Assembly (NCBI RefSeq): GCF_008107635.1
Contig: NZ_SDGZ01000017.1
Coordinates: 1 to 41,955, forward strand
Origin: Weissella muntiaci
GTDB lineage: Bacteria; Bacillota; Bacilli; Lactobacillales; Lactobacillaceae
Reading direction: 5' to 3'
DNA: 41,955 bases
Shown: piece by piece, positions 26,597-41,955 of the stretch
Numbering within the stretch: position 1 is the first letter of the stretch
How the letters are laid out: each line of letters opens with the position of its first letter
Notes under the pieces: generated by a model
Told to the model about the DNA's origin: nothing
The model's input: the letters and a program-made list of their open reading frames with translations, nothing else
Databases searched by the model: none
Made by a program: the position numbers and the translations under genes

Positions 26597-27763
26597 TTAA
26601 TCTTGTTTGTTCAGTTCCATTAATCGTTGTCGCAATGCGTCATCATAAGCGGTTAGATACAATCCGTATTTACCACGCTTCATCAATACATTTAGCACGT
26701 TTGCGATAAATTCCTGATATTCAGCCTGTGAAAATTGAATATCCTTACGCTTCTTAAAAATCTCTTTATGCGAATATTTTTCTGGGATAATCGTCATACT
26801 GTCAGTCTTTTCATCATATCCGAACGAAGGTCCGATAATCATTCCAACATAGTTCAAATCAAACCCTTGCAAAGTGTAAATTGTCCCAACTTGTGTGATC
26901 GATCCCTCACGTTTTGCCCAATGGGTTCGTTGTGGATCCCACTCATCCCAAGGTAAGCTGAATGTATCCATCTCAACATTATGACGGCCATCAATGCGTG
27001 GAAAACCTGATGTGGCAACCACACGACTCATTCCAACCTCTTTGTTCCGTAACTTAATGTTTTCAAACAATTCACCCGCAGTATCGAACATCTTAAATTC
27101 AAAATCGCTGTTATTCGGGAAGGACTTCAGCTCCTTTTGCTCAGTCAAATCATCCATCCAGGCTACTTGTTCGTCACTGGCAACCATTCGATATTGGAAG
27201 TTCATATCAAAAAGTTTGTGGGGATGCTGACCAATTGTCTTGTACAATAATTTCTCATCCCAATACATCTTTGACTGAAATACTTGGGCAAAGTCGTAAA
27301 CCACTACAACTACCTTTGCCAGATCCATTAAATCAGTCAATTGGTTTTCACCACGATAATGTGCATATGGTTCAGACTTTGAATACAATAAATGAGCCTC
27401 ATCGACAAAAATCACATCGTATTTCTTATGATTCTTTTGAGCATCATTAATTAGTGCCGTTGGCCGCCGGATTGAATTTACATTCAGATTAGGAATTGAT
27501 TCACCCAAGTCTTGATATGCTTTATATAACTCGGGGTGATTAACGACCAGCGCTGTTTTATAGCGCTTATCAGTCATGTACTGTCGAACTAATTCCATCA
27601 AAACAACTGATTTACCAGTTCCCGCGGCCCCCTGAATAATCGCAACAGAATGTGCATTATCCCGTAGGCCTTCACCAATATATTGATTGATATTAGTGAT
27701 TACACCCTTTTGATCATCTGATAGGTTATCTACAAAAAATTGTGCTTTTAATATTTCGTTCAT
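26597..27763 (-). CDS. DUF2075 superfamily-1-like ATPase/helicase
   Basis: A 388-residue protein with P-loop GAAGTGKSVVLMEL (about residues 45-58), Walker B VIFVDEAHLL, a Q-containing motif (VVVYDFAQVFQ), the motif IV-like FDMNFQYRM, and the C-terminal TLQGFDLNYVGMIIG. This order is that of DUF2075/Schlafen-like helicases. It has no nuclease domain attached, unlike longer relatives fused to GIY-YIG. It is monocistronic with TTAGGAG before the ATG and its own terminator. Role is unknown; nucleic-acid remodelling in repair or stress is possible. Confidence 0.88.
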   Translation of the reverse strand: MNEILKAQFFVDNLSDDQKGVITNINQYIGEGLRDNAHSVAIIQGAAGTGKSVVLMELVRQYMTDKRYKTALVVNHPELYKAYQDLGESIPNLNVNSIRRPTALINDAQKNHKKYDVIFVDEAHLLYSKSEPYAHYRGENQLTDLMDLAKVVVVVYDFAQVFQSKMYWDEKLLYKTIGQHPHKLFDMNFQYRMVASDEQVAWMDDLTEQKELKSFPNNSDFEFKMFDTAGELFENIKLRNKEVGMSRVVATSGFPRIDGRHNVEMDTFSLPWDEWDPQRTHWAKREGSITQVGTIYTLQGFDLNYVGMIIGPSFGYDEKTDSMTIIPEKYSHKEIFKKRKDIQFSQAEYQEFIANVLNVLMKRGKYGLYLTAYDDALRQRLMELNKQD

Positions 27764-27857: not shown

Positions 27858-28484
27858 TTATTTTAGCGCTGCAATCATCAGATTCGCAATATGAGCTGAA
27901 ACTTCATCAAGGTCATAGTTCTCAGCTGGTGAAAAACGAGTAACCCGCATAAATTCAAATAACAATTGTCCAGCAAGTAACCTAATAAAATTCTCCGGTT
28001 CTAGTTTGATTCCATTAAACATACCCTGCAATGTATCAATTGAATGTAAGAAGACCGGAATCAGCTTTTCTTTAGCCTCTGCTAGCAATTCGTCGTTAAT
28101 CATGATTTCGTTCACAAAGATTGAGATCACATCGTGATTAGTATACATAAACTCCAGCCGATTTCTCACAACAAAGCGGATTAAATCCTCAAACTGTGCG
28201 TCCTTAGGTACCTGCTTTGTTATGAAATCTTGTCCATAGTTGGGAATTAGATTATTAACCAACGGTTCAATAATCGCCTTTAATAAGTCTCTTTTTGTTT
28301 TAAAATATTTGAAGATCGTCCCCTGGCTCATTTCAGACAATTCTGAAATTTGCGCTGTACTTGTACCGTCAAACCCCTGTGTAGCAAATAATTCAACGGC
28401 CGCTTTTAAAACTTTTCGCTTGCCAGGCGTCATGTCCTCATGTTCAAACCAATCGTTTAAATCTTCAAATATTCTTTCCGCCAT
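27858..28484 (-). CDS. TetR-family regulator of the ABC exporter
   Basis: A 208-residue repressor. The helix-turn-helix lies at about residues 25-70 (AVELFATQGFDGTSTAQISE, then MSQGTIFKYFKTKRDLL). It is the last gene of an operon with the ABC ATPase and permease. The perfect palindrome downstream of the operon promoter (30396-30413) is its likely operator, giving autoregulation with ligand-induced export. Confidence 0.93.
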   Translation of the reverse strand: MAERIFEDLNDWFEHEDMTPGKRKVLKAAVELFATQGFDGTSTAQISELSEMSQGTIFKYFKTKRDLLKAIIEPLVNNLIPNYGQDFITKQVPKDAQFEDLIRFVVRNRLEFMYTNHDVISIFVNEIMINDELLAEAKEKLIPVFLHSIDTLQGMFNGIKLEPENFIRLLAGQLLFEFMRVTRFSPAENYDLDEVSAHIANLMIAALK

Positions 28485-28496
28485 ATTACAACCCTC

Positions 28497-29588
28497 TTAT
28501 ACTTTACGATAGCGTTTCAAACCAACTATGTTACCAACTGTAAGAATTACAATAAAAATTACCAGGGCTAGAAGATCGCCCCAGATCGTTGACCAACCTG
28601 CGCCAGTCATAATAACATTCGTTAAACTCTCTCCAGCATACTTCATTGGCATAATATCGGCAATAACCTTGAGCCAATTTGCCATTCCATCCATTGAAAT
28701 TAAGCCAGAGAAAAAAATTTGTGGCACAACGATGATTGGAATAAATTGCATCATTTGGAATTCCGATTTTGCAAATGTTGACATAAAGATTCCAAATGAC
28801 AACGCCAAAGTCGCCAAGAGGATGTTGATTAACACTACCCAAAGTAGTGAACCTGTTACCGTTACCCCCAATACCCAGATTGTAAAGCCGACAATTACAA
28901 GCGTTTGTAGGATTGCTAGTAAGCCATAGCTCAACATGTAACCGAAAACGATATCAGAACGCTTAACTGGAGTTGCCAGTAGCCGATCCAGCGTTCCAGT
29001 TGTTCGCTCACGTAACAAGGCCATTCCAGAAATCAAGAACACAAACAAGAATACAAAGAAGCCCATCAAAATTGGCAAGATTTTGTCAAAGTACGTTGTA
29101 TCTTGATCGCCATAATTGTAAACACTATGCACCTTTGGCTGTGTTTGTGCTTGTGGTTGAATACCCGCGCGTGCTTGCAATGTTGCCAAAGCATTTGACA
29201 TATTATTTACGTTAACCTTAACCTGTGCGGCTGAGAAAGCTGCTTTAACCAAAGCTGTCTTTGAAGCATCAACATTCGCATATGTAATTGTGAAATCACT
29301 ACCATCATAATAAACAACTGCATCCAGTTTCTGGTCATCCAACGCCTTTTGAGCCTGTTTGTTGGTAGAATAGTTATCTATTTCCAAGTTGCCTGTCTTA
29401 TTCATTGCGTTTTTTAGAGACTGCACAACATTCACTGTTCCAACATTCACTGACACGTCAGTACTTGAATTGAAAATAACTTTCATCAAAGAAAGTACCA
29501 ATAATGGTGCCAAAAACATTAGTGCTAATGTCCGCTTGTCACGGAATAGTTCTTTTAAAACTCGAATTGCTATCGACCATACACGCAT
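28497..29588 (-). CDS. ABC-2 type permease
   Basis: A 363-residue integral membrane subunit. The first transmembrane helix (RTLALMFLAPLLVLSL) is followed by a large extracytoplasmic domain of about 150 residues and then five helices. The conserved cytoplasmic RERTTGTLDRLLATPVKRSD stretch is present. This is the YhgE/ABC2_membrane_3-like drug or lipid exporter layout. The start codon overlaps the ATPase stop (TAATG), so the two are translationally coupled. Confidence 0.92.
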   Translation of the reverse strand: MRVWSIAIRVLKELFRDKRTLALMFLAPLLVLSLMKVIFNSSTDVSVNVGTVNVVQSLKNAMNKTGNLEIDNYSTNKQAQKALDDQKLDAVVYYDGSDFTITYANVDASKTALVKAAFSAAQVKVNVNNMSNALATLQARAGIQPQAQTQPKVHSVYNYGDQDTTYFDKILPILMGFFVFLFVFLISGMALLRERTTGTLDRLLATPVKRSDIVFGYMLSYGLLAILQTLVIVGFTIWVLGVTVTGSLLWVVLINILLATLALSFGIFMSTFAKSEFQMMQFIPIIVVPQIFFSGLISMDGMANWLKVIADIMPMKYAGESLTNVIMTGAGWSTIWGDLLALVIFIVILTVGNIVGLKRYRKV

Positions 29589-30310
29589 TATAATTCCCCC
29601 TCAGCTTTCAAAAAGACATCTTCAATACTCGTTACCTGATAAGCGCTCTCAAGTGCTTTTGGACTATCATTTGCAATCAACCGGCCACCTAATAATAGTG
29701 CCACACGATCGACAAGCTCAGCTTCATCCATCACATGCGTTGTGACAAGAATAGTATGCCCTTGATCACGCATTGCCTGTAGTTCAGTCCAAATCTGACG
29801 TCGAAGCGCCGGATCAATTCCAACGGTTGGTTCATCTAGGATCAGCAATTTAGGATTTCCTAAAAATGCAATCGCCAATGAAAGTCGCCGTTTCATACCG
29901 CCTGAATATCCAACAACGTATTTATCTAAATCGGCTGTTAAATCAACAATCTTGGCTACCCGTTCGATTTCCTCAGATAGAACATCCTTCTTAATACCTT
30001 TCATTTCGGCAAAAAATTGTAAGTTCTCCTTAGCTGTTAATTGTTCGTACAACGCATCTGACTGCGCCATGTACCCCATTCGACCAAGAACCTCTCGATC
30101 AGGCATCTTAACGCCAAAAACGGTGGCCACTCCTTCATCTGAGACTTCCATTCCTAAAGCGATCTTGATAATTGTTGACTTACCGGCTCCCGATGGTCCA
30201 ATCAACCCAACAATTTCACCTTGCGAAACTGAGAAAGAAACATTATCCAAAACCGTTTGGGTTCCAAATCTTTTATCAATATCGGTCAACTTAATTATGT
30301 CGTTGCTCAT
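29588..30310 (-). CDS. ABC transporter ATP-binding protein
   Basis: A 240-residue ATPase with Walker A GPSGAGKST, Q-loop region YMAQSDALYEQLT, signature YSGGMKRRLSLA, Walker B LLILDEPTVGID and the H-loop His in VTTHVMDEAE. It is the first gene of the operon, followed by the permease and TetR, and would power export of an unknown toxic compound. Confidence 0.95.
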   Translation of the reverse strand: MSNDIIKLTDIDKRFGTQTVLDNVSFSVSQGEIVGLIGPSGAGKSTIIKIALGMEVSDEGVATVFGVKMPDREVLGRMGYMAQSDALYEQLTAKENLQFFAEMKGIKKDVLSEEIERVAKIVDLTADLDKYVVGYSGGMKRRLSLAIAFLGNPKLLILDEPTVGIDPALRRQIWTELQAMRDQGHTILVTTHVMDEAELVDRVALLLGGRLIANDSPKALESAYQVTSIEDVFLKAEGEL

Positions 30311-30395
30311 TACAATATCCCCATTTCATTTTTTTAAATTGAAGTTCGGTGTTTCGTGCGGTTCTTTCTACCAGTTTAACGGTTAATTTCAATTT

Positions 30396-30413
30396 AGTGA
30401 GTGATTACTCACT
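30396..30413 (-). promoter_or_regulatory. TetR operator palindrome
   Basis: AGTGAGT-GATT-ACTCACT is a perfect 7-bp inverted repeat lying about 10 bases downstream of the -10 box of the ABC operon. It is the usual kind of TetR/AcrR site and fits repression by the operon's own regulator. Confidence 0.75.
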
Positions 30414-30423
30414 CGATAAAGTA

Positions 30424-30452
30424 ATTTTATGTCTTTACCTTCTACATGTCAA
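30424..30452 (-). promoter_or_regulatory. Promoter of ABC-TetR operon
   Basis: On the minus strand a consensus TTGACA is followed after 17 bases by TAAAAT. The palindromic operator sits just downstream. Confidence 0.8.
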
Positions 30453-30520
30453 CTTTTTCTCTCTCTGATTTTTACAACTTTCTTTTTTAACGTCCACAAT
30501 TGCTTTAAGCTGGCTACGCA

Positions 30521-30554
30521 AAAAAACGACTACCTACTAGGGGTAATCGTTCTT
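30521..30554 (-). terminator. Terminator-like hairpin downstream of xyloside operon
   Basis: On the minus strand AACGATTACC pairs with GGTAGTCGTT (one mismatch) and is followed by a long T run. It is the first terminator past the GH31 gene, about 190 bases beyond its stop. Confidence 0.7.
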
Positions 30555-30586
30555 TGCAATCAATATTTTCTAATTCCTTATTCTAT

Positions 30587-30709
30587 CTAAGCAATCATAA
30601 TCCCGTTAAAAGCAATCCCAACAAAACATTCATAGAGTGTCTTTCCCATACTTTGTTCGAAACCATTAATAACTCTTTCCACCTGATGACCTATAAGGTA
30701 GCAGTCCAT
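30587..30709 (-). CDS. Possible 40-residue ORF after GH31 gene
   Basis: An ATG at 30709 opens 40 codons (MDCYLIGHQVERVINGFEQS, ends GIAFNGIMIA) between the GH31 stop and the terminator. Composition is protein-like, but no ribosome binding site is visible and no family is recognised. It may be a gene remnant. Confidence 0.25.
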   Translation of the reverse strand: MDCYLIGHQVERVINGFEQSMGKTLYECFVGIAFNGIMIA

Positions 30710-30740
30710 AATGCAAGTTGATTCCGGATCAATTCAAAAT

Positions 30741-32858
30741 CTAAATCCGCCTAAACAAAGGTAAGCTATGGAAGTCATAATTCTCGGCAAACCACTTTCC
30801 ACCCTGCGCAACTGTAACAACTCGATGATCAATTACATGCTCCCATGTTCCGGCAGGCAAGTAATAATCAACATCACCATTCTCAGTCATAACCGGAGCA
30901 ACCATAATCTCGCTACCAAGCATATATTGTCGATCAAGTGGCGCACAATTAGGATCATCTGGGAATTCAAGATACATTGGTCGCATCAATGAGATTCCTT
31001 CAGCAACTGCTTGCTTTGCTTCTGCATAAATATAGGGCATCAGTTTTTGCTTCAGTTTAGCGAATTCACGTGTAACCGCCACTGCTTCCTCATCAAACAA
31101 CCACGGAACCCGATATTCAATGTTTCCGTGATAACGTGAATGAGATGATAATAGACCAAACTGCGTCCAACGCTTATAAATCGACGCTGATGCATTTTCT
31201 TCAAATCCGCCGATATCATGACTCCAGAAGGTGAATCCTGAAGACAAAAAGCTAAGTCCGCCTCGTAAACTGTCGGCCATTGAATGGAACTGGGACAAAT
31301 TATCACCACCCCAATGGATTGGAAATTTTTGTCCGCCAACTGTTGCTGACCTTGAAAAGACCACTGCGTCATCAGCACCTTTTTCAGCAATTAAAACATC
31401 ATAAACGGCCTCATTGTAACGGTGCGTATAATAATTGTGTTCTCCTTCAGGATTATTACCATTAAAGAAAACAGCATCATGCATTGGAATTCGTTCACCA
31501 AAATCAGTCTTGAAACAATCAACACCCATATCAAGCAGATGCTTCAAGTAGTCTTGATACCACTTAACAGCCGCTGGATTTGTAAAATCTACAAAGGCAT
31601 TTCCTGGTTGCCATAAATCCCACTGCCAAACGTTACCGTCGCCCTGCTTTATGAAGTACCCATGCTCTTTACCAATCTTGAAGAGTGGTGATTTTTGTGA
31701 GATATAGGGATTAATCCAAACACATACTTTTAAGCCACGGTCGTGTAATCGTTTTAACATGCCTGCCGGATCGGGGAATTGAGCTTGGTCCCATTCAAAA
31801 TTAGTCCACTCAAAACCTTTCATCCAAAAACAATCAAAATGGAAAACCGATAGTGGAATGTCACGCTCAGCCATTCCATCAATGAATGACATTACGGTCT
31901 TCTCTGAATAATCCGTTGTGAATGACGTTGATAACCATAAACCGAAAGTCCACTCCGGTGGCAATGTTGACCCACCTGTTAGCTTATTAAACTTGCCAAT
32001 CACTGATTTTGGCGTATCACCAGAGATAATGAAATAGGACAAGTCCTCACCTCTTTTAGAGAACGAAACCCGATCAACAACTTCACTTGCAACTTCAAAA
32101 CTAACCGGCTTGCTTTCGTTCACAAAGACTCCATAATACGTACCAGGTTGGTCTCCCACACCCGCTTTGCCTGCCAAATAGAATGGAATTGACTTATAGG
32201 TTTGCTCAGAACCAGTCCCACCATCTCGATTAATAATATCGATCGTCTGACCATTCTTAACAAACGTTCCAAATTGCTCACCGAAGCCATAGACATTAGT
32301 TCCAGGCAACAGGCTCAACTGCTCACGCATATAGTGATCAGCACGTCGCACCATACCTTGTGGCATCATTGATTGTGCACCTGTGACCGAATTTGCGTGC
32401 ATCACTTCGCCTAACTTTTGACCACTTAGGTCAGCAATTGACGCTTGTGCTTTAATTTGTGAACCAGTAATCCGTTTGTCACGATATAGAACGTCCATGT
32501 TGAACGCATCATGCAACGTAAAATTAAGAGTTAAATCCCCAGAAATATAACTGGCCTGTTGCTGGTCGATCTGAGTTTGTACTTGTGTTGGTGCGGTTGT
32601 CAGTTTATATAATGGTACTCGATCATCTTGGTCAAAATGCATTAACTTAACACCAATGACGCCCTCCATTGGTGAACTCAGAGTAATCGTTGAATTCCCG
32701 ATATCCAACATATTGCTACGTGATTGTAATCTCTGATAACTTGCATACACCGTCATTTTTGTTTGATCAGTTGGATCAACAACAGCTTCATAAGCTTCTA
32801 GTGGTGAGTTAATAATATATTGCTCACGACCTAGCCAATATCCATTAGAAAATTTCAT
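30741..32858 (-). CDS. Alpha-xylosidase, GH31 (YicI/XylQ-like)
   Basis: A 705-residue cytosolic retaining glycosidase. The beta-sandwich N-domain (1-300) is followed by the GH31 barrel: PPEWTFGLWLSTSFTTDYSE, the HFDCFWMKGFEW substrate loop (typical of alpha-xylosidases), nucleophile Asp452 in KTDFGERIP and acid/base Asp519 in HWGGDN. It should release xylose from alpha-xylosides such as isoprimeverose. It follows the GPH transporter gene by 12 bases and forms an operon like xylP-xylQ of Lactobacillus pentosus. It is similar in length to other YicI-type enzymes. Confidence 0.92.
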   Translation of the reverse strand: MKFSNGYWLGREQYIINSPLEAYEAVVDPTDQTKMTVYASYQRLQSRSNMLDIGNSTITLSSPMEGVIGVKLMHFDQDDRVPLYKLTTAPTQVQTQIDQQQASYISGDLTLNFTLHDAFNMDVLYRDKRITGSQIKAQASIADLSGQKLGEVMHANSVTGAQSMMPQGMVRRADHYMREQLSLLPGTNVYGFGEQFGTFVKNGQTIDIINRDGGTGSEQTYKSIPFYLAGKAGVGDQPGTYYGVFVNESKPVSFEVASEVVDRVSFSKRGEDLSYFIISGDTPKSVIGKFNKLTGGSTLPPEWTFGLWLSTSFTTDYSEKTVMSFIDGMAERDIPLSVFHFDCFWMKGFEWTNFEWDQAQFPDPAGMLKRLHDRGLKVCVWINPYISQKSPLFKIGKEHGYFIKQGDGNVWQWDLWQPGNAFVDFTNPAAVKWYQDYLKHLLDMGVDCFKTDFGERIPMHDAVFFNGNNPEGEHNYYTHRYNEAVYDVLIAEKGADDAVVFSRSATVGGQKFPIHWGGDNLSQFHSMADSLRGGLSFLSSGFTFWSHDIGGFEENASASIYKRWTQFGLLSSHSRYHGNIEYRVPWLFDEEAVAVTREFAKLKQKLMPYIYAEAKQAVAEGISLMRPMYLEFPDDPNCAPLDRQYMLGSEIMVAPVMTENGDVDYYLPAGTWEHVIDHRVVTVAQGGKWFAENYDFHSLPLFRRI

Positions 32859-32870
32859 AATCCCTCCAAA

Positions 32871-34268
32871 TTAAGCTTGTAATTCTGCAGCATGCTTGGC
32901 CTTTAAGTCCTTTAGCATCTTCGACTCAAGCTTATCTACATCATTAAACAATAGCGCCACTGCTGATGCAGCGTACCCAATAAATGGAATCCAAATGAAT
33001 CCCATACTAATTGCGTTTAATGCACCGGATCCCTGTGCAGCTGTACCAGCAACATAATGTCCGGCTGCCAAAACAGCGGCTAAAATCATTGATCCAAGTC
33101 CCATGCCTAGCTTGGCCGAGAATGATGAGAACGAAGTTACAAATCCTTCCGCACGTACACCATTCTTCCACTCACCAAAATCAACGGAATCAGATAACAT
33201 TACGGCAATTAGCGCACCAGTTAATCCGTAAGAAATATAGTACAAAACGATTCCCGCCAAAATAATTGGAACCGAGTCGCCCATACGATCTGCCAGATAC
33301 AAAATTAACTGTGAGATTGCTGTCCCAGTCATTCCTAAGAGCATGGTATTCCGCTTTCCAATCCACTTTGAGCACATTGGAATTAGCGCGGTCGATAAGA
33401 CGGTAATAATTGTCCCTGCCAAAACTAATGAACCTAAGGCTTCATTGTGCAGATTATATTTAAAATAATAAGGTAATGCTGATGCTCGAACAGCAAATCC
33501 ACCCCAATAAATGAAGTTTATGAAAATGATAATCGCCCATGGGTAATTTCCCTTGAGCGCCTTGATTGACTCACGCATTGGAATTGCACGCTGTGAATCA
33601 CGCGTTACAACCCTTTCACGGGTTCCAGAAAAGGCCGTCAATAATGCCGCCACTGTAATAACTGCCAGGATAACCGCCCAAATAAACCAACCAATTGGTG
33701 ATGTTGAAGGATCCTTAGTATGCTGATCAAACATTCCGGCAAACAAGATTACAGCCGGTAATGTCAATGGTAAAAAGATTGCAGCTCCAAAATTACCAAA
33801 CAATTGCCGCACCGTCGATAAAGTTATCCGTTCAGAAGGGCTCGATGTCAATGTTGGTAAAATCGAGGTTACAGGAATATTAATTCCTGAATATAGAACT
33901 TTCGCCCCAATATATGCGATATAAATCCAAATGATTTTACCAGTTTGCGACAGTGGCACATCTGTAAATGCCATTACACAAAATAGTCCAAAAGGAATCG
34001 AGAACCACAGCCAATATGGTCGCGACTTTCCCCAACGTGTTTGCGTCCGATCAATAAACTGACCCCAGATTAATCCATCAAAGGAATCAATAATTGCAGA
34101 AATTGCGAACAAACCAGTAACGGCCGCCGCCGCAATTCCCATCGTATCTGTAGCAAATACTAAGAAATAAGTTCCCACAATCTGGAAAATCGTATTACAA
34201 CCAAAATCACTCATGGCATACGAAATCCGCTGACCCCAGGGAACCTGATGATTATTTTCAACGTCCAT
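32871..34268 (-). CDS. GPH-family sugar:cation symporter (XylP-like)
   Basis: A 465-residue 12-helix transporter of the glycoside-pentoside-hexuronide family. The N-terminal signature is clear (GQRISYAMSDFGCNTIFQIV, then FIDRTQTRWGKSRPYWLW). It is first in an operon with the GH31 alpha-xylosidase, so the substrate is probably isoprimeverose or another alpha-xyloside. AAAGGAG precedes the ATG. A cre-like site in its leader suggests carbon catabolite repression, and the divergent AraC protein is the likely specific regulator. Confidence 0.93.
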   Translation of the reverse strand: MDVENNHQVPWGQRISYAMSDFGCNTIFQIVGTYFLVFATDTMGIAAAAVTGLFAISAIIDSFDGLIWGQFIDRTQTRWGKSRPYWLWFSIPFGLFCVMAFTDVPLSQTGKIIWIYIAYIGAKVLYSGINIPVTSILPTLTSSPSERITLSTVRQLFGNFGAAIFLPLTLPAVILFAGMFDQHTKDPSTSPIGWFIWAVILAVITVAALLTAFSGTRERVVTRDSQRAIPMRESIKALKGNYPWAIIIFINFIYWGGFAVRASALPYYFKYNLHNEALGSLVLAGTIITVLSTALIPMCSKWIGKRNTMLLGMTGTAISQLILYLADRMGDSVPIILAGIVLYYISYGLTGALIAVMLSDSVDFGEWKNGVRAEGFVTSFSSFSAKLGMGLGSMILAAVLAAGHYVAGTAAQGSGALNAISMGFIWIPFIGYAASAVALLFNDVDKLESKMLKDLKAKHAAELQA

Positions 34269-34306
34269 GCGTCTTCTCCTTTAAAAATTTACACATAACA
34301 ACTTGC

Positions 34307-34328
34307 TTATCAACATAAATCATGATAA
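34307..34328. promoter_or_regulatory. Dyad between xylP-like and araC-like genes
   Basis: TTATCA-N10-TGATAA is an inverted repeat in the divergent intergenic region. It may be a site for the AraC regulator or a chance AT-rich dyad. Confidence 0.35.
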
Positions 34329-34330
34329 TT

Positions 34331-34344
34331 TGTATGCGCTTACA
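34331..34344. promoter_or_regulatory. cre-like catabolite repression site
   Basis: TGTATGCGCTTACA matches the cre consensus TGWAANCGNTNWCA at 13 of 14 positions. It lies between the divergent transporter and AraC genes, close to the expected operon promoter, and so fits CcpA control of xyloside use. Confidence 0.7.
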
Positions 34345-34429
34345 TTCAAAGGTTTTTCATTGATACTGTAACAAATCGAAAATGAATAGGTAAGAAATTG
34401 AAGTTTTTTAGAAACAGGAACCTCTAACA

Positions 34430-35257
34430 ATGGATAAAAATAATCACGAATTTATACGCTCGAATTATGATGTTTTAATACGTTTTTTTAAGTCTGAAAC
34501 AGACCATTCAGGCTTATTACCACTTCATTGGCATCAAAGCATTGAAATTATCTATGTATTAACTGGCACAGTTACCTTTACAGTTGATTCACGAACTTTC
34601 ACCGTTAATCCGCATGAGATTTTCATCATTCCCTCGAATGTGATTCATTCAGACACCCATACTCAGAATCAAGCTTATGTTATTCAAATCCCACTTAAGT
34701 TTTTCCACAACCTAGGCATCAACGCTGAAAACTGGGAGATTGATTTTCAAAAATTAAAGCATACCAACGATCTTAGCTTTTTCACTCACTTCGATCATCT
34801 GTATCAAATTTATCAGGCAAAGGCAACCGGCTATGTTCTGGCCTTTTATGCAATTCTTCTGATACTAATTCAACAACTTTATGTGCAAAATATTATTACC
34901 GACAAGGAAACGATAACTGTTAATAATGCTCAATTAATTGAGTTAATTAAATTTATTAACGTTCACTTTATGGAAAAAATCACTGTCAACACTTTAGCTG
35001 AACGCTTTGGCTATAATCCTAATTATCTAAGTCGAAAATTTAAACTTGAAACAGGTCATACATTAATCAGCTATTTGTACAGCCTGCGTCTCAAACAAGC
35101 CTATCAACTTTTGGTTGATAGCAACGATTCCATCCAATCAATCTTTAAAAGTGTTGGCCTTTCTAACAATCAAACCACCTACCAATATTTCAAAAAAATC
35201 TATGGCACTAGTCCGCTCAACATTAGAAATTCTCAACATAAAGATACTTTGCAATAG
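34430..35257 (+). CDS. AraC-family regulator of the alpha-xyloside operon
   Basis: A 275-residue regulator. The N-terminal cupin (about residues 20-90) has LPLHWHQSIEIIYVLTGTVT and IIPSNVIHSDTHT. The C-terminal pair of helix-turn-helix motifs (about 170-270) shows NTLAERFGYNPNYLSRKFK and IFKSVGLSNNQTTYQYFKKI with a final YGTSPLNIR. It is divergent from the transporter and GH31 genes, the usual position for a sugar-sensing activator. Lactobacillus pentosus uses a ROK-type XylR instead. Confidence 0.92.
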   Translation: MDKNNHEFIRSNYDVLIRFFKSETDHSGLLPLHWHQSIEIIYVLTGTVTFTVDSRTFTVNPHEIFIIPSNVIHSDTHTQNQAYVIQIPLKFFHNLGINAENWEIDFQKLKHTNDLSFFTHFDHLYQIYQAKATGYVLAFYAILLILIQQLYVQNIITDKETITVNNAQLIELIKFINVHFMEKITVNTLAERFGYNPNYLSRKFKLETGHTLISYLYSLRLKQAYQLLVDSNDSIQSIFKSVGLSNNQTTYQYFKKIYGTSPLNIRNSQHKDTLQ

Positions 35258-35296
35258 TTACGAGCAAGCGGATTTTCATTTTGATTCGCTAAAAAA

Positions 35297-35325
35297 GGTA
35301 CTAAACAATAATATTGTTTAGTACC
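35297..35325. terminator. Bidirectional terminator between convergent genes
   Basis: GGTACTAAACAAT and its complement form a near-perfect palindrome with A-run/T-run flanks. On the minus strand it is followed by TTTTTT and ends the glycosyltransferase operon; on the plus strand it can end the araC-like gene. Confidence 0.9.
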
Positions 35326-35336
35326 TCTCTTTACTT

Positions 35337-36803
35337 TCATCTTTCAATCAGGCTTTCACTTTCAAGAAAACCCCGCCATTTCCTTGCGGTCGCCTGCACA
35401 CCGAAAAATTCAATTGATCGTTCTTGGCCCAATCGCCGTTGACGGTCAAATTCCGCTGAATTGTCCAACAGGAATGCGATTCCGTCCGCTAAGGCATCAA
35501 CGTTTCCAGACTCAACCAGCACGCCACTATCCAACTGTTCATGTATGTAAGATGGCCCATACTTCACGTCATAGGCCACTGTTGGAATACCATGCGCGGC
35601 TGCTTCCAACATCGACATATTAAAGCCCTCATATTCACTAGTGAGTACAAAGACATCCGCATCAGCAAAAAGCCGGTCTTTATCTTCTTGATATGGTAGC
35701 AAAAAGACATTTTCCTCGACTTGTAATTGCTTGATCAATGCCAATAATTCATCGTTATATTGACCATCAGTAACATAGCCATATATCCGTAGTTTAACAT
35801 CCGGATATTTAGTAACCAATTTAGCAACCGCATAAATTGCATCTTGCAGGCGCTTCTCACGTGAGATTCTTGATGCGTAAATTAAGTTATGTGCTCCGCC
35901 CGGGTTTGCTGATAAAGGTAGTTTCTCTTGCTTTACCTGAGCAACCGGAATTGCAAAGGTCTTAATTCCAGTTCGATCCTGATAATCTTTTGCCTGTTGT
36001 GGGGTTGATGCAATATACCCTCGCCAACGCTCCCTATGGTCAAATTCCAATTTGCGCACGTCATTTAGTGGTGAATTTAATGGGTCGTTTCGATCTCTGG
36101 TATGCGCACTATGTAGAACCACATAAGCTGGTACGGATTTATTTTGCATATCCAGCACAATTGCTGTTGCATATTCAGCGCGATCAACATACAAAACCGC
36201 CGCCTGATCCCGGCTAGTTAAATGATCCAACCACGCTACTTTGATCTCATGCCAGTTATAGTAGACGTTCTTTTTTCCAACTGCATACTGTGGGTTGTCA
36301 GGCGTAACAATCAATAAGCCACCAATTTCGTACAACACGACTTTTCCAGCCGGATTATACCAGCTTCTTTTTTCGATATTTGAGCCATTGAACTCTAGTC
36401 GCAACGAAAGAAAACCACGAATATCCCAATGGTCCTCGACGACTAATTGATCTTCTGAATTAAAATATCGAACTAGACTAAGCTTATTTTGGCTTAAAAC
36501 ATAATCAGGGGTTGTCCGCTGACCATAATATTCAAACTTAGTCTTTAAACCATTAAATTCATTTACGAACGGGTAATCCCTAACTGCCCCAGCCAAAGCA
36601 CTCTGCCAGTAATCAAACATGTTTAATGATACGTCACGATTAATTCCATGGCGAAACAAAAAACGATTTAACTCAGGCGTGTAATCAAAGGTCACAATTT
36701 TCGACTCAACCTTCAACTCCGTGAACATCTGCCAACGATAGAACTGTGCATGCTCAATTCCAGATAGATTATATTCAAACTTATTGGTTAAAAAATAATG
36801 CAT
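35337..36803 (-). CDS. TagE/GtfA-like glycosyltransferase 3 of 3
   Basis: A 488-residue GT4-type (GT-B fold) enzyme. The start at 36803 (MHYFLTNKFEYNLSGIEHAQ) matches the two paralogs upstream; an in-frame GTG four codons earlier overlaps the ribosome binding site. The N-terminal half has the family SGIEHAQ start and internal DIRGFLSL. The C-terminal half has HNLIYASRISREKRL and the nucleotide-sugar EX7E motif EGFNMSMLE (Glu392, Glu400), then GIPTVAYDVKYGPS. Relatives glycosylate teichoic acids (TagE/TarM) or, as TagE5/TagE6 (GtfA/GtfB) in L. plantarum, surface proteins. It is last in the operon. Confidence 0.9.
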   Translation of the reverse strand: MHYFLTNKFEYNLSGIEHAQFYRWQMFTELKVESKIVTFDYTPELNRFLFRHGINRDVSLNMFDYWQSALAGAVRDYPFVNEFNGLKTKFEYYGQRTTPDYVLSQNKLSLVRYFNSEDQLVVEDHWDIRGFLSLRLEFNGSNIEKRSWYNPAGKVVLYEIGGLLIVTPDNPQYAVGKKNVYYNWHEIKVAWLDHLTSRDQAAVLYVDRAEYATAIVLDMQNKSVPAYVVLHSAHTRDRNDPLNSPLNDVRKLEFDHRERWRGYIASTPQQAKDYQDRTGIKTFAIPVAQVKQEKLPLSANPGGAHNLIYASRISREKRLQDAIYAVAKLVTKYPDVKLRIYGYVTDGQYNDELLALIKQLQVEENVFLLPYQEDKDRLFADADVFVLTSEYEGFNMSMLEAAAHGIPTVAYDVKYGPSYIHEQLDSGVLVESGNVDALADGIAFLLDNSAEFDRQRRLGQERSIEFFGVQATARKWRGFLESESLIER

Positions 36804-36822
36804 ATTAACTTCCACTCAACTC

Positions 36823-38337
36823 TTAGATTTTCTCTAGCAGAGCTTTCCAACGCTCAGCGCTGGCTTTCAAATCAAACGCTCTCATCGCATCAACACCAAA
36901 GCGTGCAAAATCAACACGTTTTTCATCATCTGCCAATAATTCTAAACTCTTACTTGCCATTGCTTGGTAATCACCCTGTTCAACAATATAACCATCTTGG
37001 TTATCCGTGACGACTTCACTTGGACCATACTTAGTATCATATGATACAACTGGAACACCATATGTGAATGCCTCATTAATTACCATGCCCCAACCTTCGT
37101 TCCGACTTGTTAACAATAATAATTGTGCATTCTGATAAATTTCATCTTTTGAGAGAGTATAAGCTTTAAAGATAACACTGCCTTCTAACCCTAAATCTCT
37201 AACCTGGTCTTGCAAACGCTCATTCAGCTTAATATCCAAGATATAGCCATAGACATACAACTTCAACGTTGAACGCTGATCGCGCATGATTTTGAATGCC
37301 TTTAATGCATCAGAGATATTCTTTTGTTCTTCAATTCGAGCAACTAAAATTATCTTGTCAGGGTCGCGCTGTTCAAATGGTAATACGGTTGGCATTTCAT
37401 CATTTAAAGCCACCGAAATATTGTGAACTGGGATGCTTGCTGGTAAGCGTTTTTCCAAGTCGACTGCAGCAGCCCGAGTTGGAACCAAGTAACCATTCAG
37501 TTGTCCAGAATTAATTTCATTTTCCATTACTGGCACTAATGGTCCTTCTGGCGAATAATCAGTTGTGAATGTGTTATGCCAAAACTCGTACTTCTTCACC
37601 GTATTTTTCATTAGGAACAACGGCTTATCAACAAGATATGATCGGTCAGCGATGAAAGTCGACTGCTCACCATTTACAATACTAATCTGATCATAGAAGT
37701 AAGCTGCCAAATGGTCTAGATCAGAAAACATCATCTCCACGTCATTCTGCTTCAAAATCAATAATGTATTACCAATCTCACCATTGGCTTGCTCATGATA
37801 GTAGGAATTAATAACTTCATTACCGGCAATATCATACATAACTTCGTGAGCGACCCCGCCATCTTGTCCAAAAAAGGTCGCAATTGAAAGGAATCCTCGT
37901 GTATCAAATCCATCACGGCGAACAAGGTTGCCATTTCGGTCAAACCACTCAATACTGGTTGCAAGATTGCCATTTCGATTGATTCTGGCCTTTAGTTGCC
38001 GTTGTCTGTCTAAGAAACTTACCGCTCGATCATTTGCTTGTACATCTAATTCGCCATCGTGTTCTTCAATCAAACGTGCTGTGATTTGCTCAACATCGTT
38101 TTGCATTTCAAAATCTGTAGGCAAACTTACCGCATTCTGAAAGAAATCAAACATACTTAGCATGTCCGACTCTGGAATTGACCAATGTTTCATATTTTCA
38201 TGTAGTTGACGATTAAAATGAAAAGTTACAATTTTGGCTGGAACATCCATTTCCCTAAAGATCTTGAGCCGGTTAATCATTGCTATCTCAAGTCCCGCCA
38301 ATTTATCATTAATCGTGTGTGTTAAAAAATAGTACAT
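36823..38337 (-). CDS. TagE/GtfA-like glycosyltransferase 2 of 3
   Basis: A 504-residue paralog with the same layout. The N-terminus (MYYFLTHTINDKLAGLEIAM) has Ala-Gly-Leu-Glu in place of the Ser-Gly-Ile-Glu-His-Ala-Gln start of the others. This may mean a changed donor or acceptor contact, or a non-catalytic partner role as in GtfA/GtfB-type pairs. DTRGFLSIATFFGQDGGVAH, KIILVARIEEQKNI and the EX7E motif EGWGMVINE are intact, so activity is possible. It lies 13 bases downstream of the first glycosyltransferase gene and 19 bases before the third, with AAGGAAA before the ATG. Confidence 0.9.
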   Translation of the reverse strand: MYYFLTHTINDKLAGLEIAMINRLKIFREMDVPAKIVTFHFNRQLHENMKHWSIPESDMLSMFDFFQNAVSLPTDFEMQNDVEQITARLIEEHDGELDVQANDRAVSFLDRQRQLKARINRNGNLATSIEWFDRNGNLVRRDGFDTRGFLSIATFFGQDGGVAHEVMYDIAGNEVINSYYHEQANGEIGNTLLILKQNDVEMMFSDLDHLAAYFYDQISIVNGEQSTFIADRSYLVDKPLFLMKNTVKKYEFWHNTFTTDYSPEGPLVPVMENEINSGQLNGYLVPTRAAAVDLEKRLPASIPVHNISVALNDEMPTVLPFEQRDPDKIILVARIEEQKNISDALKAFKIMRDQRSTLKLYVYGYILDIKLNERLQDQVRDLGLEGSVIFKAYTLSKDEIYQNAQLLLLTSRNEGWGMVINEAFTYGVPVVSYDTKYGPSEVVTDNQDGYIVEQGDYQAMASKSLELLADDEKRVDFARFGVDAMRAFDLKASAERWKALLEKI

Positions 38338-38350
38338 CGTATTTCCTTCT

Positions 38351-39877
38351 CTAATTCAATAATTCAAGCCATTGTTGTGCCATTTGGTTCTTATTATAGA
38401 AACTTGCTTTCAGTTGACTTTCCTTACCAAGTTTTTCTAATGTGAATTGACTCTTTAATAACTCAACTGTTCGTTTTGCGAAATCATCAAGATTATTATT
38501 CTCAATTAAATAACCATTTTTCGCTTGATCAATCAATTCTGCTGGACCATATTTGATATCAAATGCAACTACCGGCACACCATGACTCATCGCCTCTAGT
38601 TGCGCCATATTGAAGCCTTCATACAAACTCAGCATCCAAAACAACTGAGCATTCTCGTAGATCTCGTTCAAATCATTTTGATATGGATGAATCATAATAT
38701 TTGCTTGCAGATTTAAGTCTGCAATCTGTTGTTCAAGTTTTTGACGATTGCCATTTTGGTTATAGCCATAAATATGCCACTTAGCCTGTGGCACTCTTTT
38801 AACGACCTTTGCAAAGATTTCAACACCTAAATCAAGTCGCTTTTCTTCAGAAAGCCTTGCAACCGTTATAATTTCGTACTTATGCCGGCGACTAAACTTA
38901 TTGAATTCCATCGTACGCTCATCGATCAAAGCTGAGTTAATTTTAAAAACTGGTATCTTACCTTCAACCACACGTTGCAAATCTTCCACTTCCGCACTGG
39001 TAGCCGCAATCAGTCCGTCAATTTTATCGGCTGCTTTGATTTCATCAAGTAATGTGTCAAAAGGCTTGGTCGTCAACGGATCCTTACCATTTGGCACAAA
39101 GGTACTATGCCAATAAGCATACATTTTCCTTGCCGTCCGCATGTTCAGCAGCCCTTGATCCGTTTTAAAAGCTCGATCTGAAATGAATATATTTTCTTCC
39201 TGATTTGATTTGTTCAATAGGTCAAAGAAATAACCTTCTAGTTCTGCTTTTTGGCTAAAACTATGCTTAATCGTTCCGTGCCCATCACTAACAAACCACT
39301 GTGTGGCGTTAATTGCCCCATTCGGTTCACGTTTATAGACAGATTCTACTACTGGTTGACCGGCTAAATTAAAATTGATTTCTCTGGCAACGCCACCACG
39401 CTGTCCGTAAATATCCGACATACTCTTGAATCCGCGAATATCATAGTAATCGGTTTTAATTTTATAGCCATTACCATCAAAAAATTCGACATAATTTATT
39501 TGTAAATCAAAAACTGGGTTATTCATTAAATAAATCTTTTTTGTTGTAACGTTACCAATGCCAATGGTCCACATTACTTCATTTTGATCAAGAATCGCCT
39601 CATTCTCAGCAATAAGCTGAGTTGCTGGAATCTGATACGCATAATCCTCTAATGTCGTTACCGAAACGCCTTGTAGAAAATCGTACATATTGATGAATTC
39701 TGCCGGATCAATACCATTCTTCTTTAATGAACGCGTTAAAAACCGATTATACGCCAATGAAACAATCTTATTCGGCGTCACTGTCTTTTCGCGTAAGGCA
39801 CTCATTCTCTTAAGCTGTGCATGTTCAATACCAGATAATTGATCCGCATAATCGTAAGTTACAAAGTAGTTTGCCAT
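38351..39877 (-). CDS. TagE/GtfA-like glycosyltransferase 1 of 3
   Basis: A 508-residue paralog, first of the trio. The N-terminus (ANYFVTYDYADQLSGIEHAQ) is the canonical family start. DIRGFKSMSDIYGQRGGVAR lies in the middle, followed by IITVARLSEEKRLDLGV and the EX7E motif EGFNMAQLE with GVPVVAFDIKYGPAELI. It lies 83 bases downstream of the pentapeptide-repeat LPXTG gene on the same strand, with only a weak hairpin between. Read-through from the adhesin gene is likely and would link the enzyme to that substrate. Confidence 0.9.
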   Translation of the reverse strand: MANYFVTYDYADQLSGIEHAQLKRMSALREKTVTPNKIVSLAYNRFLTRSLKKNGIDPAEFINMYDFLQGVSVTTLEDYAYQIPATQLIAENEAILDQNEVMWTIGIGNVTTKKIYLMNNPVFDLQINYVEFFDGNGYKIKTDYYDIRGFKSMSDIYGQRGGVAREINFNLAGQPVVESVYKREPNGAINATQWFVSDGHGTIKHSFSQKAELEGYFFDLLNKSNQEENIFISDRAFKTDQGLLNMRTARKMYAYWHSTFVPNGKDPLTTKPFDTLLDEIKAADKIDGLIAATSAEVEDLQRVVEGKIPVFKINSALIDERTMEFNKFSRRHKYEIITVARLSEEKRLDLGVEIFAKVVKRVPQAKWHIYGYNQNGNRQKLEQQIADLNLQANIMIHPYQNDLNEIYENAQLFWMLSLYEGFNMAQLEAMSHGVPVVAFDIKYGPAELIDQAKNGYLIENNNLDDFAKRTVELLKSQFTLEKLGKESQLKASFYNKNQMAQQWLELLN

Positions 39878-39917
39878 TTAAGTTATCCTGCTTCCAATAT
39901 TTTATTGTATTATGTAT

Positions 39918-39942
39918 GACGCTGGATTTCCCAGCGCCGTTT
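39918..39942 (-). terminator. Weak hairpin between adhesin and glycosyltransferase genes
   Basis: On the minus strand GCGCTGG and CCAGCG pair around GAAAT, but no T run follows. It may pause or partly terminate transcription, letting the glycosyltransferases be made at a lower level than the adhesin. Confidence 0.4.
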
Positions 39943-39959
39943 AAGATTAGTATTTCATC

Positions 39960-41955
39960 TTAATTTTCTTTTTTCTTGCCAGCTGCTGCCAAGGTTCCTA
40001 GACCGAGTAACATTAACCCGGCAATTGAAACCAAACTCTCTGATGCATAACCAGTTTCAGGGAGTGTATTTGCCGAATCATCCATGTTTCTATGAATAGA
40101 TCCCGAATTTCCACCATTACCATCTAATCCCAAGTTAGTTCCAGAACCATTCCCGCTTTCTGAAACCACTGGTTTTGCTAGAACGGTTATATTAGCCGTA
40201 GCCCAAACCTCATCACCTAGTATACCTGAAGAATTCAAATTCATCATCTTTAATAGGTCTTCTTTTTGTGCATTCGTTAAGCTCAAACTTCCCCACATAT
40301 AAGTAATTGTATACTTTCCGGGAACATTCAAATCGCCTGAAAGAATATATTGAATTACATTTGCTGGAATATCATCACTGAAGTAACCAAATGAAGTCCG
40401 ATCAACAAAAGTGATCTTATTTGCTGTCAAATAATTACCGTGGTCATCCTTCAAACTCACAAAATTATCGCTTGGATTCCAAGTACCAGCAGTAACTGTT
40501 GAATCATGGACTTCCAACTCTGGGCTTGATAGGTTATCACCCTTCAAGTTGTTTCCAACATTACCACTACCGGTGTTATTGTCACCAATATTATTATCAC
40601 CAGTGTTGTTATTTCCAACGTTACTGTTTCCGGTATTGTTGTCACCTGAGTTATCGGTTCCTACATTACTGTTTCCGATGTTATTGTCTCCAGAATTGTC
40701 CGATCCCACATTACTGTTTCCAGTGTTATTATCCCCGAAGTTGTCTGAACCCACGTTACTGTTTCCAGTATTGTTGTCTCCCGAGTTGTCTGAGCCTACA
40801 TTACTGTTCCCTGTATTATTGTCGCCGGAGTTGTCTGAACCAGTATTACTGTTCCCTGTATTATTATCTCCAGAGTTGTCTGAGCCTGTATTACTGTTCC
40901 CAGTATTATTGTCGCCAGAGTTGTCTGAGCCTACATTACTGTTCCCTGTATTGTTATCTCCAGAATTGTCTGAGCCTGTATTACTGTTCCCGGTATTGTT
41001 ATCTCCAGAATTGTCTGAGCCTACATTGCTGTTCCCGGTATTGTTATCCCCAGAGTTGTTTGAGCCCGTATTATTATCACCAGAATTATCGGTTCCAGTG
41101 TTACTGTTCCCTGTATTGTTGTCCCCAGAATTATCTGAACCCGTATTACTGTTTCCAGTATTGTTGTCTCCCGAGTTGTCTGAGCCTGTATTGCTGTTTC
41201 CAGTATTGTTGTCTCCCGAGTTGTCTGAGCCTGTATTGTTATTCCCAGAGTTATTTGAGCCTGTATTGCTGTTTCCAGTATTGCTGTCGCCGGAGTTGTC
41301 TGAGCCGGTATTACTGTTTCCAGTATTATTATCCCCAGAATTGTCTGAGCCCGTATTGCTGTTTCCAGTATTGCTATCCCCAGAGTTGTCTGAGCCTACA
41401 TTACTGTTTCCAGTATTGTTATCCCCGGAATTATCTGAACCCGTGTTACTGTTTCCAGTATTATTATCACCAGAATTATCGGTTCCAGTGTTACTGTTTC
41501 CAGTATTGTTATCTCCAGAGTTGTCCGAGCCCGTATTGCTGTTTCCAGTATTGCTGTCTCCCGAGTTATCTGACCCTACATTACTATTTCCAGTATTATT
41601 ATCACCAGAATTATCGGTTCCAGTGTTACTGTTTCCAGTATTATTATCTCCAGAATTATCGGTTCCAGTGTTACTGTTTCCAGTGTTGTTATCTCCAGAG
41701 TTGTCCGAGCCCGTATTGCTATTTCCAGTATTGCTGTCTCCCGAGTTATCTGATCCTACATTACTATTTCCAGTATTATTATCACCAGAATTATCGGTTC
41801 CAGTATTACTGTTTCCAGTATTGTTGTCGCCAGAATTGTCTGAACCCGTATTACTGTTTCCAGTATTGTTGTCTCCCGAGTTGTCTGAGCCGGTATTGCT
41901 GTTTCCAGTATTGCTGTCTCCCGAGTTATCTGATCCTACATTACTATTTCCAGTA
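39960..41955 (-). CDS. Giant LPXTG protein with XNXGX pentapeptide repeats (5' end outside)
   Basis: The frame is open from the right edge to the stop at 39960 (at least 665 codons). No start codon occurs in the repeat until a GTG at 40754, so the gene surely begins outside. The visible body is about 95 pentapeptides of the form X-N-X-G-X (such as GSDNSGDNNTGNSNT), ordered as a 15-residue higher unit. After it comes an Ig-like domain of about 110 residues (EVHDSTVTAGTWNPSDNFVS, then PGKYTITYMWG). A Ser/Gly/Asn linker, LPETG at 40050-40064, a hydrophobic helix and the tail GKKKEN follow. It is a sortase-anchored surface protein. The Asn/Ser/Thr-rich stalk and the three following glycosyltransferases suggest it is glycosylated. 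Confidence 0.88.
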   Translation of the reverse strand, partial: TGNSNVGSDNSGDSNTGNSNTGSDNSGDNNTGNSNTGSDNSGDNNTGNSNTGTDNSGDNNTGNSNVGSDNSGDSNTGNSNTGSDNSGDNNTGNSNTGTDNSGDNNTGNSNTGTDNSGDNNTGNSNVGSDNSGDSNTGNSNTGSDNSGDNNTGNSNTGTDNSGDNNTGNSNTGSDNSGDNNTGNSNVGSDNSGDSNTGNSNTGSDNSGDNNTGNSNTGSDNSGDSNTGNSNTGSNNSGNNNTGSDNSGDNNTGNSNTGSDNSGDNNTGNSNTGSDNSGDNNTGNSNTGTDNSGDNNTGSNNSGDNNTGNSNVGSDNSGDNNTGNSNTGSDNSGDNNTGNSNVGSDNSGDNNTGNSNTGSDNSGDNNTGNSNTGSDNSGDNNTGNSNVGSDNSGDNNTGNSNVGSDNFGDNNTGNSNVGSDNSGDNNIGNSNVGTDNSGDNNTGNSNVGNNNTGDNNIGDNNTGSGNVGNNLKGDNLSSPELEVHDSTVTAGTWNPSDNFVSLKDDHGNYLTANKITFVDRTSFGYFSDDIPANVIQYILSGDLNVPGKYTITYMWGSLSLTNAQKEDLLKMMNLNSSGILGDEVWATANITVLAKPVVSESGNGSGTNLGLDGNGGNSGSIHRNMDDSANTLPETGYASESLVSIAGLMLLGLGTLAAAGKKKEN
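40530..41955 (-). repeat. 45-bp coding tandem array (XNXGX pentapeptides)
   Basis: About 1.4 kb of tandem 15-bp units, ordered mostly into 45-bp triplets (roles GSDNS, GDNNT, GNSNT/V). It runs to the right edge and shows mixed synonymous changes and a few divergent units near its 3' end. It resembles Pentapeptide_2 arrays. Blocks of several units recur almost identically (for example around 41560-41660 and 41740-41840), indicating recent expansion or contraction. Confidence 0.9.

Follow-up and report, generated by a model that had tools for sequence, protein, structure and literature searches.

We analysed a 41,955-nt stretch of the Weissella muntiaci genome (contig NZ_SDGZ01000017.1, positions 1 to 41,955; 'the window' below). 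The minus strand of positions 35296-41955 encodes, in transcriptional order, an adhesin with a pentapeptide stalk and, after an 82-nt gap, three glycosyltransferases (GTs), win3, win2 and win1. This is very probably a dedicated stalk-glycosylation locus: judging from sequence comparison, we give a probability of about 0.77 to the reading that the three enzymes act on the adhesin stalk, the locus making a stalked wall-anchored adhesin together with the enzymes that would O-glycosylate it. A locus dedicated to the adhesin is supported because all five genomes with a real xGxxN stalk have genes of the SdgB/GtfA family beside a stalk gene. The initial annotation of the window had proposed such a locus; the recurrence of stalk and GT genes speaks for its being dedicated, while the four-gene order turned out not to be conserved.

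The adhesin and its stalk

The window holds the C-terminal part of the adhesin (39960-41954, minus strand), an open reading frame (ORF) that is open at the window edge and carries an LPETG motif. Its stalk (40560-41955, minus strand) is built of tandem N-[T/S]-G-x-x repeats, referred to as xGxxN units, and matches the Pfam family Pentapeptide_2 (PF01469) with 220 bits in 17 stretches. The part of the stalk inside the window has 93 units in 467 residues. The five-residue register is invariant at two places (Gly at 94 of 94, Asn at 93 of 93), 79 of the 93 units have Thr or Ser at position 0, and Ser and Thr together account for 144 residues. Self-identity reaches 0.867 at lag 15, compared with 0.465-0.479 at lags 5, 10 and 20, indicating a 15-residue superperiod. 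The stalk runs beyond the window to the contig end; the contig continues, with runs of N, to position 42975 and ends within the stalk, thus the adhesin N terminus lies off the contig.

Downstream of the stalk comes a domain (40164-40559, minus strand) that opens with a GNNLxGDNL cap; similar domains come after the stalks of two other proteins of the genome, on contigs C28 and C23. The last segment (39960-40079, minus strand) comprises the LPETG sortase anchor and the adhesin C terminus, with the Gram_pos_anchor model scoring 28 bits (cut-off 20).

At least three pentapeptide-stalk proteins are encoded in the W. muntiaci genome. Three C-terminal halves end in LPETG (the window adhesin, contig C9), LPETD (C28) and LPKTG (C23), and three N-terminal halves with KxYKxGKxW signals are located on C15, C28 and C33; all stalk halves run off contig ends. 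The C-terminal half in the window is 58% (C28) and 67% (C23) identical to the other two over aligned stretches that include repeats, and by eye similar domains follow the stalks of two other genomes, G105 and G191. No exact end overlap joined N- and C-terminal halves in any of nine combinations, and the pairing of halves was dropped. A single-sequence AlphaFold2 model of the stalk end and post-stalk domain was discarded as well (pLDDT 39.1). About 4 kb from the C28 stalk half there is a PRK09814-like sugar transferase gene (171 bits, cut-off 420), and between the two stalk adhesin halves of C28 there is a gene (L067:6216-8084) for an LPRTD-anchored protein with legume-lectin-type and MucBP domains.

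Among the titles and abstract beginnings of the papers listed we recognised no paper on glycosylation of xGxxN/Pentapeptide_2 stalks in lactic-acid bacteria; the pentapeptide protein described in the available part of PMC3387028 belongs to PF00805, a family distinct from that of the stalk.

The three glycosyltransferases

The genes win3 (38351-39877, 508 aa), win2 (36823-38337, 504 aa) and win1 (35337-36815, 492 aa as listed) are full length and lie on the same minus strand as the adhesin. The initial annotation called them TagE/GtfA-like GT-B genes; the three GT-B genes are there as described, the closest named family by sequence being SdgA/SdgB rather than TagE/GtfA. All three contain Pfam Glycos_transf_1 (118.4-120.3 bits), and a GT-B fold with an inserted ten-strand beta (DUF1975) domain was found. 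The best NCBIfam scores came from the SdgA/SdgB models (191.5 bits for win1, 226.8 for win2 with the SdgA model, 242.7 for win3), below the cut-off of 800 bits set for these exception-level models; the GtfA model gave 94.5, 52.2 and 101.4 bits for win1, win2 and win3 against a cut-off of 574.6. For all three, SdgB is the nearest relative by sequence, followed by TarM and then GtfA, with SdgB 60-69 bits ahead of TarM. The predicted fold of win3 (27% identical to SdgB) follows the same order; SdgA is not among the entries listed in that comparison, an absence that excludes nothing. Catalytic residues of SdgB, Arg329/Lys334 and the Glu406/Glu414 loop (E-x7-E), are kept in all three enzymes (R341, K346, E420 and E428 in win3 numbering). 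Residues of the SdgB substrate groove, compared by eye in win3 only, differ and were not used as evidence.

With mutual identities of ∼30% and long branches, recent tandem duplication of the trio was rejected; the sequences indicate that the trio is old and divergent. At E 1e-80, win3 had relatives in its own genome alone among 28 genus genomes and 201 family genomes; at E 1e-75, two of 395 order genomes matched, its own and G105 (32% identity). The win1 search likewise matched no genome but its own, among 28 of the genus (E 1e-100) as among 397 of the family (E 1e-80), and win2 at E 1e-75 matched its own genome alone out of 395 order genomes. At the cut-offs used, the trio itself is known here only.

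The one other match of win1 in the family search was a paralogue on contig C15 (6431-8899, locus L019), an 822-aa fusion of a win1-like GT, whose N-terminal part is 63% identical to win1, and a PRK09814-like sugar transferase domain, the kind to which we take GtfC/Gtf3-type enzymes to belong. It follows a gene whose Ser/Glu-rich product carries a KxYKxGKxW signal, an arrangement that connects the win1 type with adhesin glycans. A broken GT remnant is situated directly upstream of the fusion gene. Since the paralogue begins at the corresponding Met, ATG 36803 is the likelier start of win1.

Further GT pairs of the SdgB/GtfA family occur on contigs C6, C7, C15 and C34. The C6 pair has no marked adhesin gene within 19 kb and may be a general glycosylation pair. 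The C34 pair (L018:2410-10374) stands beside genes for a C39-peptidase ABC exporter, an HlyD-like protein and, by eye, a CPBP-type protein. Adhesin markers above cut-off are absent for 33 kb around it, and weaker ones for 25 kb; a glycosylated secreted peptide is a possible product of that locus. On C7 (L065:671-12856), a gene for a 1,153-aa protein without Pfam match separates the GT pair from that of a 4,061-aa LPXTG adhesin.

Recurrence of stalk and glycosyltransferase genes

The PF01469 stalk search (E 1e-6) matched 6 of 397 family genomes, W. muntiaci included; the stalk was not matched in the 20 same-genus genomes listed in this search. One genome, G649, was dropped as a stalk genome before counting, its match being a 104-aa frame within an 861-aa same-strand ORF (FtsK-like by eye), and no GT of the SdgB/GtfA family was present in the 19.9 kb fetched around it. 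In each of the remaining five genomes, from four genera, SdgB/GtfA-family genes adjoin a stalk gene, with gaps of 82 nt (G000, W. muntiaci), 119 nt (G105), 96 nt (G191), 91 nt (G216, by subtraction from listed frames) and 3 nt (G627).

The recurring unit consists of a stalk gene and two to four GT-family genes. In G105, of a different genus, a surface protein exceeding 3,000 aa with the same stalk and a similar GDNLxGDNL cap is followed by genes for a 517-aa GT, starting 119 nt downstream, and a short relative of 320 aa. G191 and G216 have a short GT relative and a full GT after the stalk gene, with a convergent pair beyond; the stalk gene of G216 is broken by a frame change in the repeats, and its two frames were read apart. 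In G627, the GT pair is upstream of the stalk gene. The short GT relatives beside stalk-linked full GTs (237-320 aa, three genomes; L088:9915-10634, L087:6109-6822, L072:6139-7101) lack the C-terminal GT-B domain and are possibly non-catalytic partners.

The stalks total 93 (G000), 73 (G105), 146 (G191), 50 (G216) and 248 (G627) xGxxN units, in two runs each in G105 and G216; two of the other genomes have unbroken runs of 146 and 248 units. Runs in the other genomes were counted by the xGxxN pattern itself, therefore run length, not invariance, is the evidence there.

The five genomes came to attention in different ways: the window was the starting point, G105 was first met via its GT, and the stalk search by itself led to G191, G216 and G627. 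Given their shared layout, G191 and G216 may count as one event. By rough arithmetic rather than a tool result, two independent stalk-GT adjacencies would arise by chance about 2 times in 10,000, assuming that GT genes with 150-nt margins make up ∼1.5% of a genome (a rough bound, with up to 15 first-look candidates per other genome, from counts that did not include G191, G216 and G627).

Linkage to adhesin genes and neighbours

Within the W. muntiaci genome, three of six GT clusters fall in the 8.4% of the sequence that is at most 700 nt away from a marked adhesin gene (P 0.0098), and four of six are within 5 kb of one (P 0.0082; three of five without the window locus, P 0.034). The statistic uses true gene directions and leaves out 7 of 22 LPXTG matches that fell under cut-off, three weak or broken GT matches (C5, C32 and C15:6042) and the C16 accessory Sec GtfA/GtfB cluster, which stands ∼0.5 kb from a serine-rich repeat (SRR) adhesin.

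With a profile of the trio and the C15 paralogue, 23 related loci were fetched from named genomes, several of them ending at contig ends; at 13, the DNA retrieved includes a marked adhesin gene. Setting aside proteins of at least 1,000 aa, 73 neighbours were listed for 22 loci, and a scan covered 44 of them, from 19 loci, the commonest families being ABC transporters (4), KxYKxGKxW signals (4), MucBP (3) and bPH_2 (3). Teichoic-acid genes beside most relatives would, according to the initial annotation, have told against its proposal. This pattern was not seen in what is a partial test: no teichoic-acid family appeared among the 25 of 51 neighbour Pfam families listed (44 neighbours, 19 of the 23 loci).

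Four plasmid records matched at E 1e-40, and three were examined. On plasmid pEM6, an LPXTG protein gene lies 63 nt upstream of the GT gene; on a Staphylococcus epidermidis plasmid, one gene separates a Sdr-like protein gene from the GT gene; on a Lactobacillus crispatus plasmid, no annotated adhesin was present in the stretch shown.

Proposed mechanism and alternatives

The adhesin would be made with a KxYKxGKxW-type signal, a ligand-binding head, the N-[T/S]-G-x-x stalk and the LPETG anchor; stalk and anchor are observed, while signal and head are suggested by the three N-terminal halves found elsewhere in the genome. Priming of Ser/Thr in the stalk would fall to an SdgB-like enzyme, possibly win3, which would use a UDP-sugar, most likely that of N-acetylglucosamine (GlcNAc), the sugar being proposed because of the SdgB relationship and the conserved catalytic residues. 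The other two enzymes might act on additional residues or lengthen the glycan, in the way that SdgA acts after SdgB. We consider a prime-then-extend order starting with win3, drawn by analogy, rather doubtful. The enzymes would be cytoplasmic and glycosylate the stalk before export; once outside, the adhesin would be attached by sortase. Other pentapeptide-stalk adhesins of the genome are probably modified in trans by the trio as well, just as SdgA/SdgB act on several Sdr-type proteins.

Several observations count against a dedicated stalk-glycosylation locus. For each of the three enzymes the second-best relative is TarM, which acts on teichoic acid; for two control paralogues that place is taken by GtfA. 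SdgA/SdgB were the best NCBIfam models for 9 of 10 other family members scanned in the genome as well, therefore being 'SdgB-like' is not special to the window locus. The stalk has 22 SD but 0 DSD in its 467 residues, DSD being the minimal acceptor of SdgB; the specificity of the enzymes must therefore differ from that of SdgB. A GT gene of the SdgB/GtfA family adjoins one (C9) of the three stalk C-terminal halves of the genome, those on C28 and C23 having none. Linkage within the genome is weak: leaving out the window, two of five clusters have a marked adhesin gene no more than 700 nt away (P 0.059). Among the 23 related loci, six have such a gene within 1 kb of a GT (L036, L038, L041, L042, L043 and L047, of which three are from Secundilactobacillus); this count leaves out an 87-aa frame in L035. 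Finally, the dropped G649 match has the best single E-value of the stalk search (9.2e-8).

In one alternative, the trio glycosylates wall teichoic acid or another glycopolymer, as TarM/TagE-like enzymes do, and stands beside the adhesin by chance. We regard it as improbable: SdgB exceeds TarM for every one of the three enzymes, the 30 window ORFs scanned, like the 25 of 51 neighbour families listed, include no teichoic-acid family, and the linkage of stalk and GT genes in five of five genomes would have to be coincidence. A slightly stronger competitor, though still an unlikely one, is a general surface-protein O-glycosylation set not dedicated to the stalk. The model for it is the Gtf1/Gtf2 pair of Lactiplantibacillus plantarum, which modifies many proteins (available part of PMC5796085), and the G627 stalk gene does adjoin a pair that shares its lineage with the adhesin-free pair on C6. 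Yet the family pairs on C6, C7, C15 and C34 would make another general set superfluous, and the distribution of the genes also disagrees with it: at the cut-offs used, win3 and win1 searches found no match to trio members in the 27 other genus genomes, nor was the stalk matched in the 20 same-genus genomes listed. This distribution suggests that trio and stalk were gained together.

More tentatively, with odds somewhat below even, the xGxxN stalk may add a third class to the dedicated glycosylated adhesin stalks, of which the SRR and serine-aspartate repeat (SDR) types are the other two. Here the strict N-[T/S]-G register would be the acceptor recognised by a distinct set of SdgB-related enzymes. 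That set would have been acquired as one unit by unrelated lactic-acid bacteria and would act in trans on a family of stalk adhesins, with no accessory Sec at the locus. Few acceptor designs are known for O-glycosylation of bacterial stalks, SRR, SDR and the Ala/Ser/Thr-rich region of Acm2 being among those in the literature. A strictly periodic stalk beside dedicated enzymes would provide a clean, short peptide acceptor for studying how SdgB-type enzymes read their substrate and for asking what extra enzymes add. It would also allow one to ask why a single lactic-acid bacterium maintains several adhesin glycosylation sets in parallel.

Organization of the locus

As listed, the GT frames are 13 nt (win3/win2) and 7 nt (win2/win1) apart. 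The 82-nt gap between adhesin and win3 folds at −16.1 kcal/mol (z −3.8) and contains a hairpin (39918-39938, minus strand) with an 8-bp GC-rich stem, stronger than the 'weak' hairpin of the initial annotation. Despite this stem it is not a typical terminator because it has no U-tract; it is possibly a partial attenuator or an element of mRNA processing or stability, and transcription may therefore continue from the adhesin into the GT genes. Between win1 and a convergent AraC-type regulator gene, a perfect 14-bp inverted repeat and, on the minus strand, a T-run after it (35296-35326, folding z −4.9) form a probable terminator closing the unit. Rfam and tRNA scans of the window gave no match.

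A plasmid location of the locus was rejected, as neither megablast of window positions 28000-41900 against 72,556 plasmid records nor tblastn of the post-stalk domain against plasmid records produced a match.

Elsewhere in the window, genes were noted for an LPXTG protein whose SSURE domains lie in 435-bp DNA repeats, beside a two-component system (9712-12018), an arylsulfotransferase (ASST), here in a lactic-acid bacterium (16158-17834), and a protein with a Schlafen group 3-like DNA/RNA helicase domain (26597-27763).

Comparison with known systems

Sdr-family adhesins are LPXTG-anchored, and we know of no accessory Sec genes beside sdgA/sdgB. The staphylococcal SdgA/SdgB enzymes with their Sdr-family adhesins (such as ClfA and ClfB) resemble the window locus in that the adhesin stalk is long and of low complexity and the GT-B enzymes agree in fold and catalytic residues; there, several adhesins share a single enzyme set (available part of PMC8561734). 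SdgB primes Ser in short SD peptides with GlcNAc, the minimal acceptor being DSD; SdgA, as cited there, acts only after SdgB, and short peptides gave no SdgA product (PMC8561734). The systems differ in stalk, Ser-Asp as opposed to N-[T/S]-G-x-x without DSD, in the number of enzymes, three here, and in sequence (27% identity between win3 and SdgB; 191.5-242.7 bits against the NCBIfam cut-off of 800).

Accessory Sec systems glycosylate their SRR adhesins in the cytoplasm before export, and these adhesins have KxYKxGKxW-type signals. Such systems (GtfA/GtfB, Gtf3/GtfC, Asp, SecA2/SecY2) are similar to the window locus in that related GT-B enzymes, several per locus, glycosylate a stalk (available part of the review PMC5796085). 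The Fap1 cluster counts six GTs in the same part of the review (PMC5796085), contrary to the earlier statement that known systems use two enzymes. In the window locus no SRR was seen, and a Pfam scan of 30 window ORFs showed no asp, secY2 or secA2 gene, in agreement with the initial annotation. The genome has a separate such system, with a SecA2/SecY2/Asp1-3 set on contig C32, away from the window locus, and GtfA on C16 (553.6 bits, just under the GtfA cut-off). On C29 (L063:1-4603), Asp1/Asp2-like genes under curated cut-offs are located behind the end of a Ser/Glu-rich adhesin gene; neither SecA2 nor SecY2 was noticed among the genes of the 8 kb fetched.

The L. plantarum enzymes Gtf1/Gtf2 (originally GtfA/GtfB; TagE5/TagE6) are, like the trio, DUF1975-type GTs of lactobacilli; they add a single N-acetylhexosamine, probably GlcNAc, to surface proteins, and both genes are needed (available part of PMC5796085). 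Theirs is a general system, whereas here three genes follow one particular stalk protein. TarM, which transfers GlcNAc to wall teichoic acid, differs in its polymer acceptor and scores below SdgB, and no teichoic-acid gene was seen near the trio among the 30 window ORFs scanned. The kind of system, an adhesin with dedicated enzymes of the SdgB/GtfA family, is thus known; the type of stalk and the size of the enzyme set are new.

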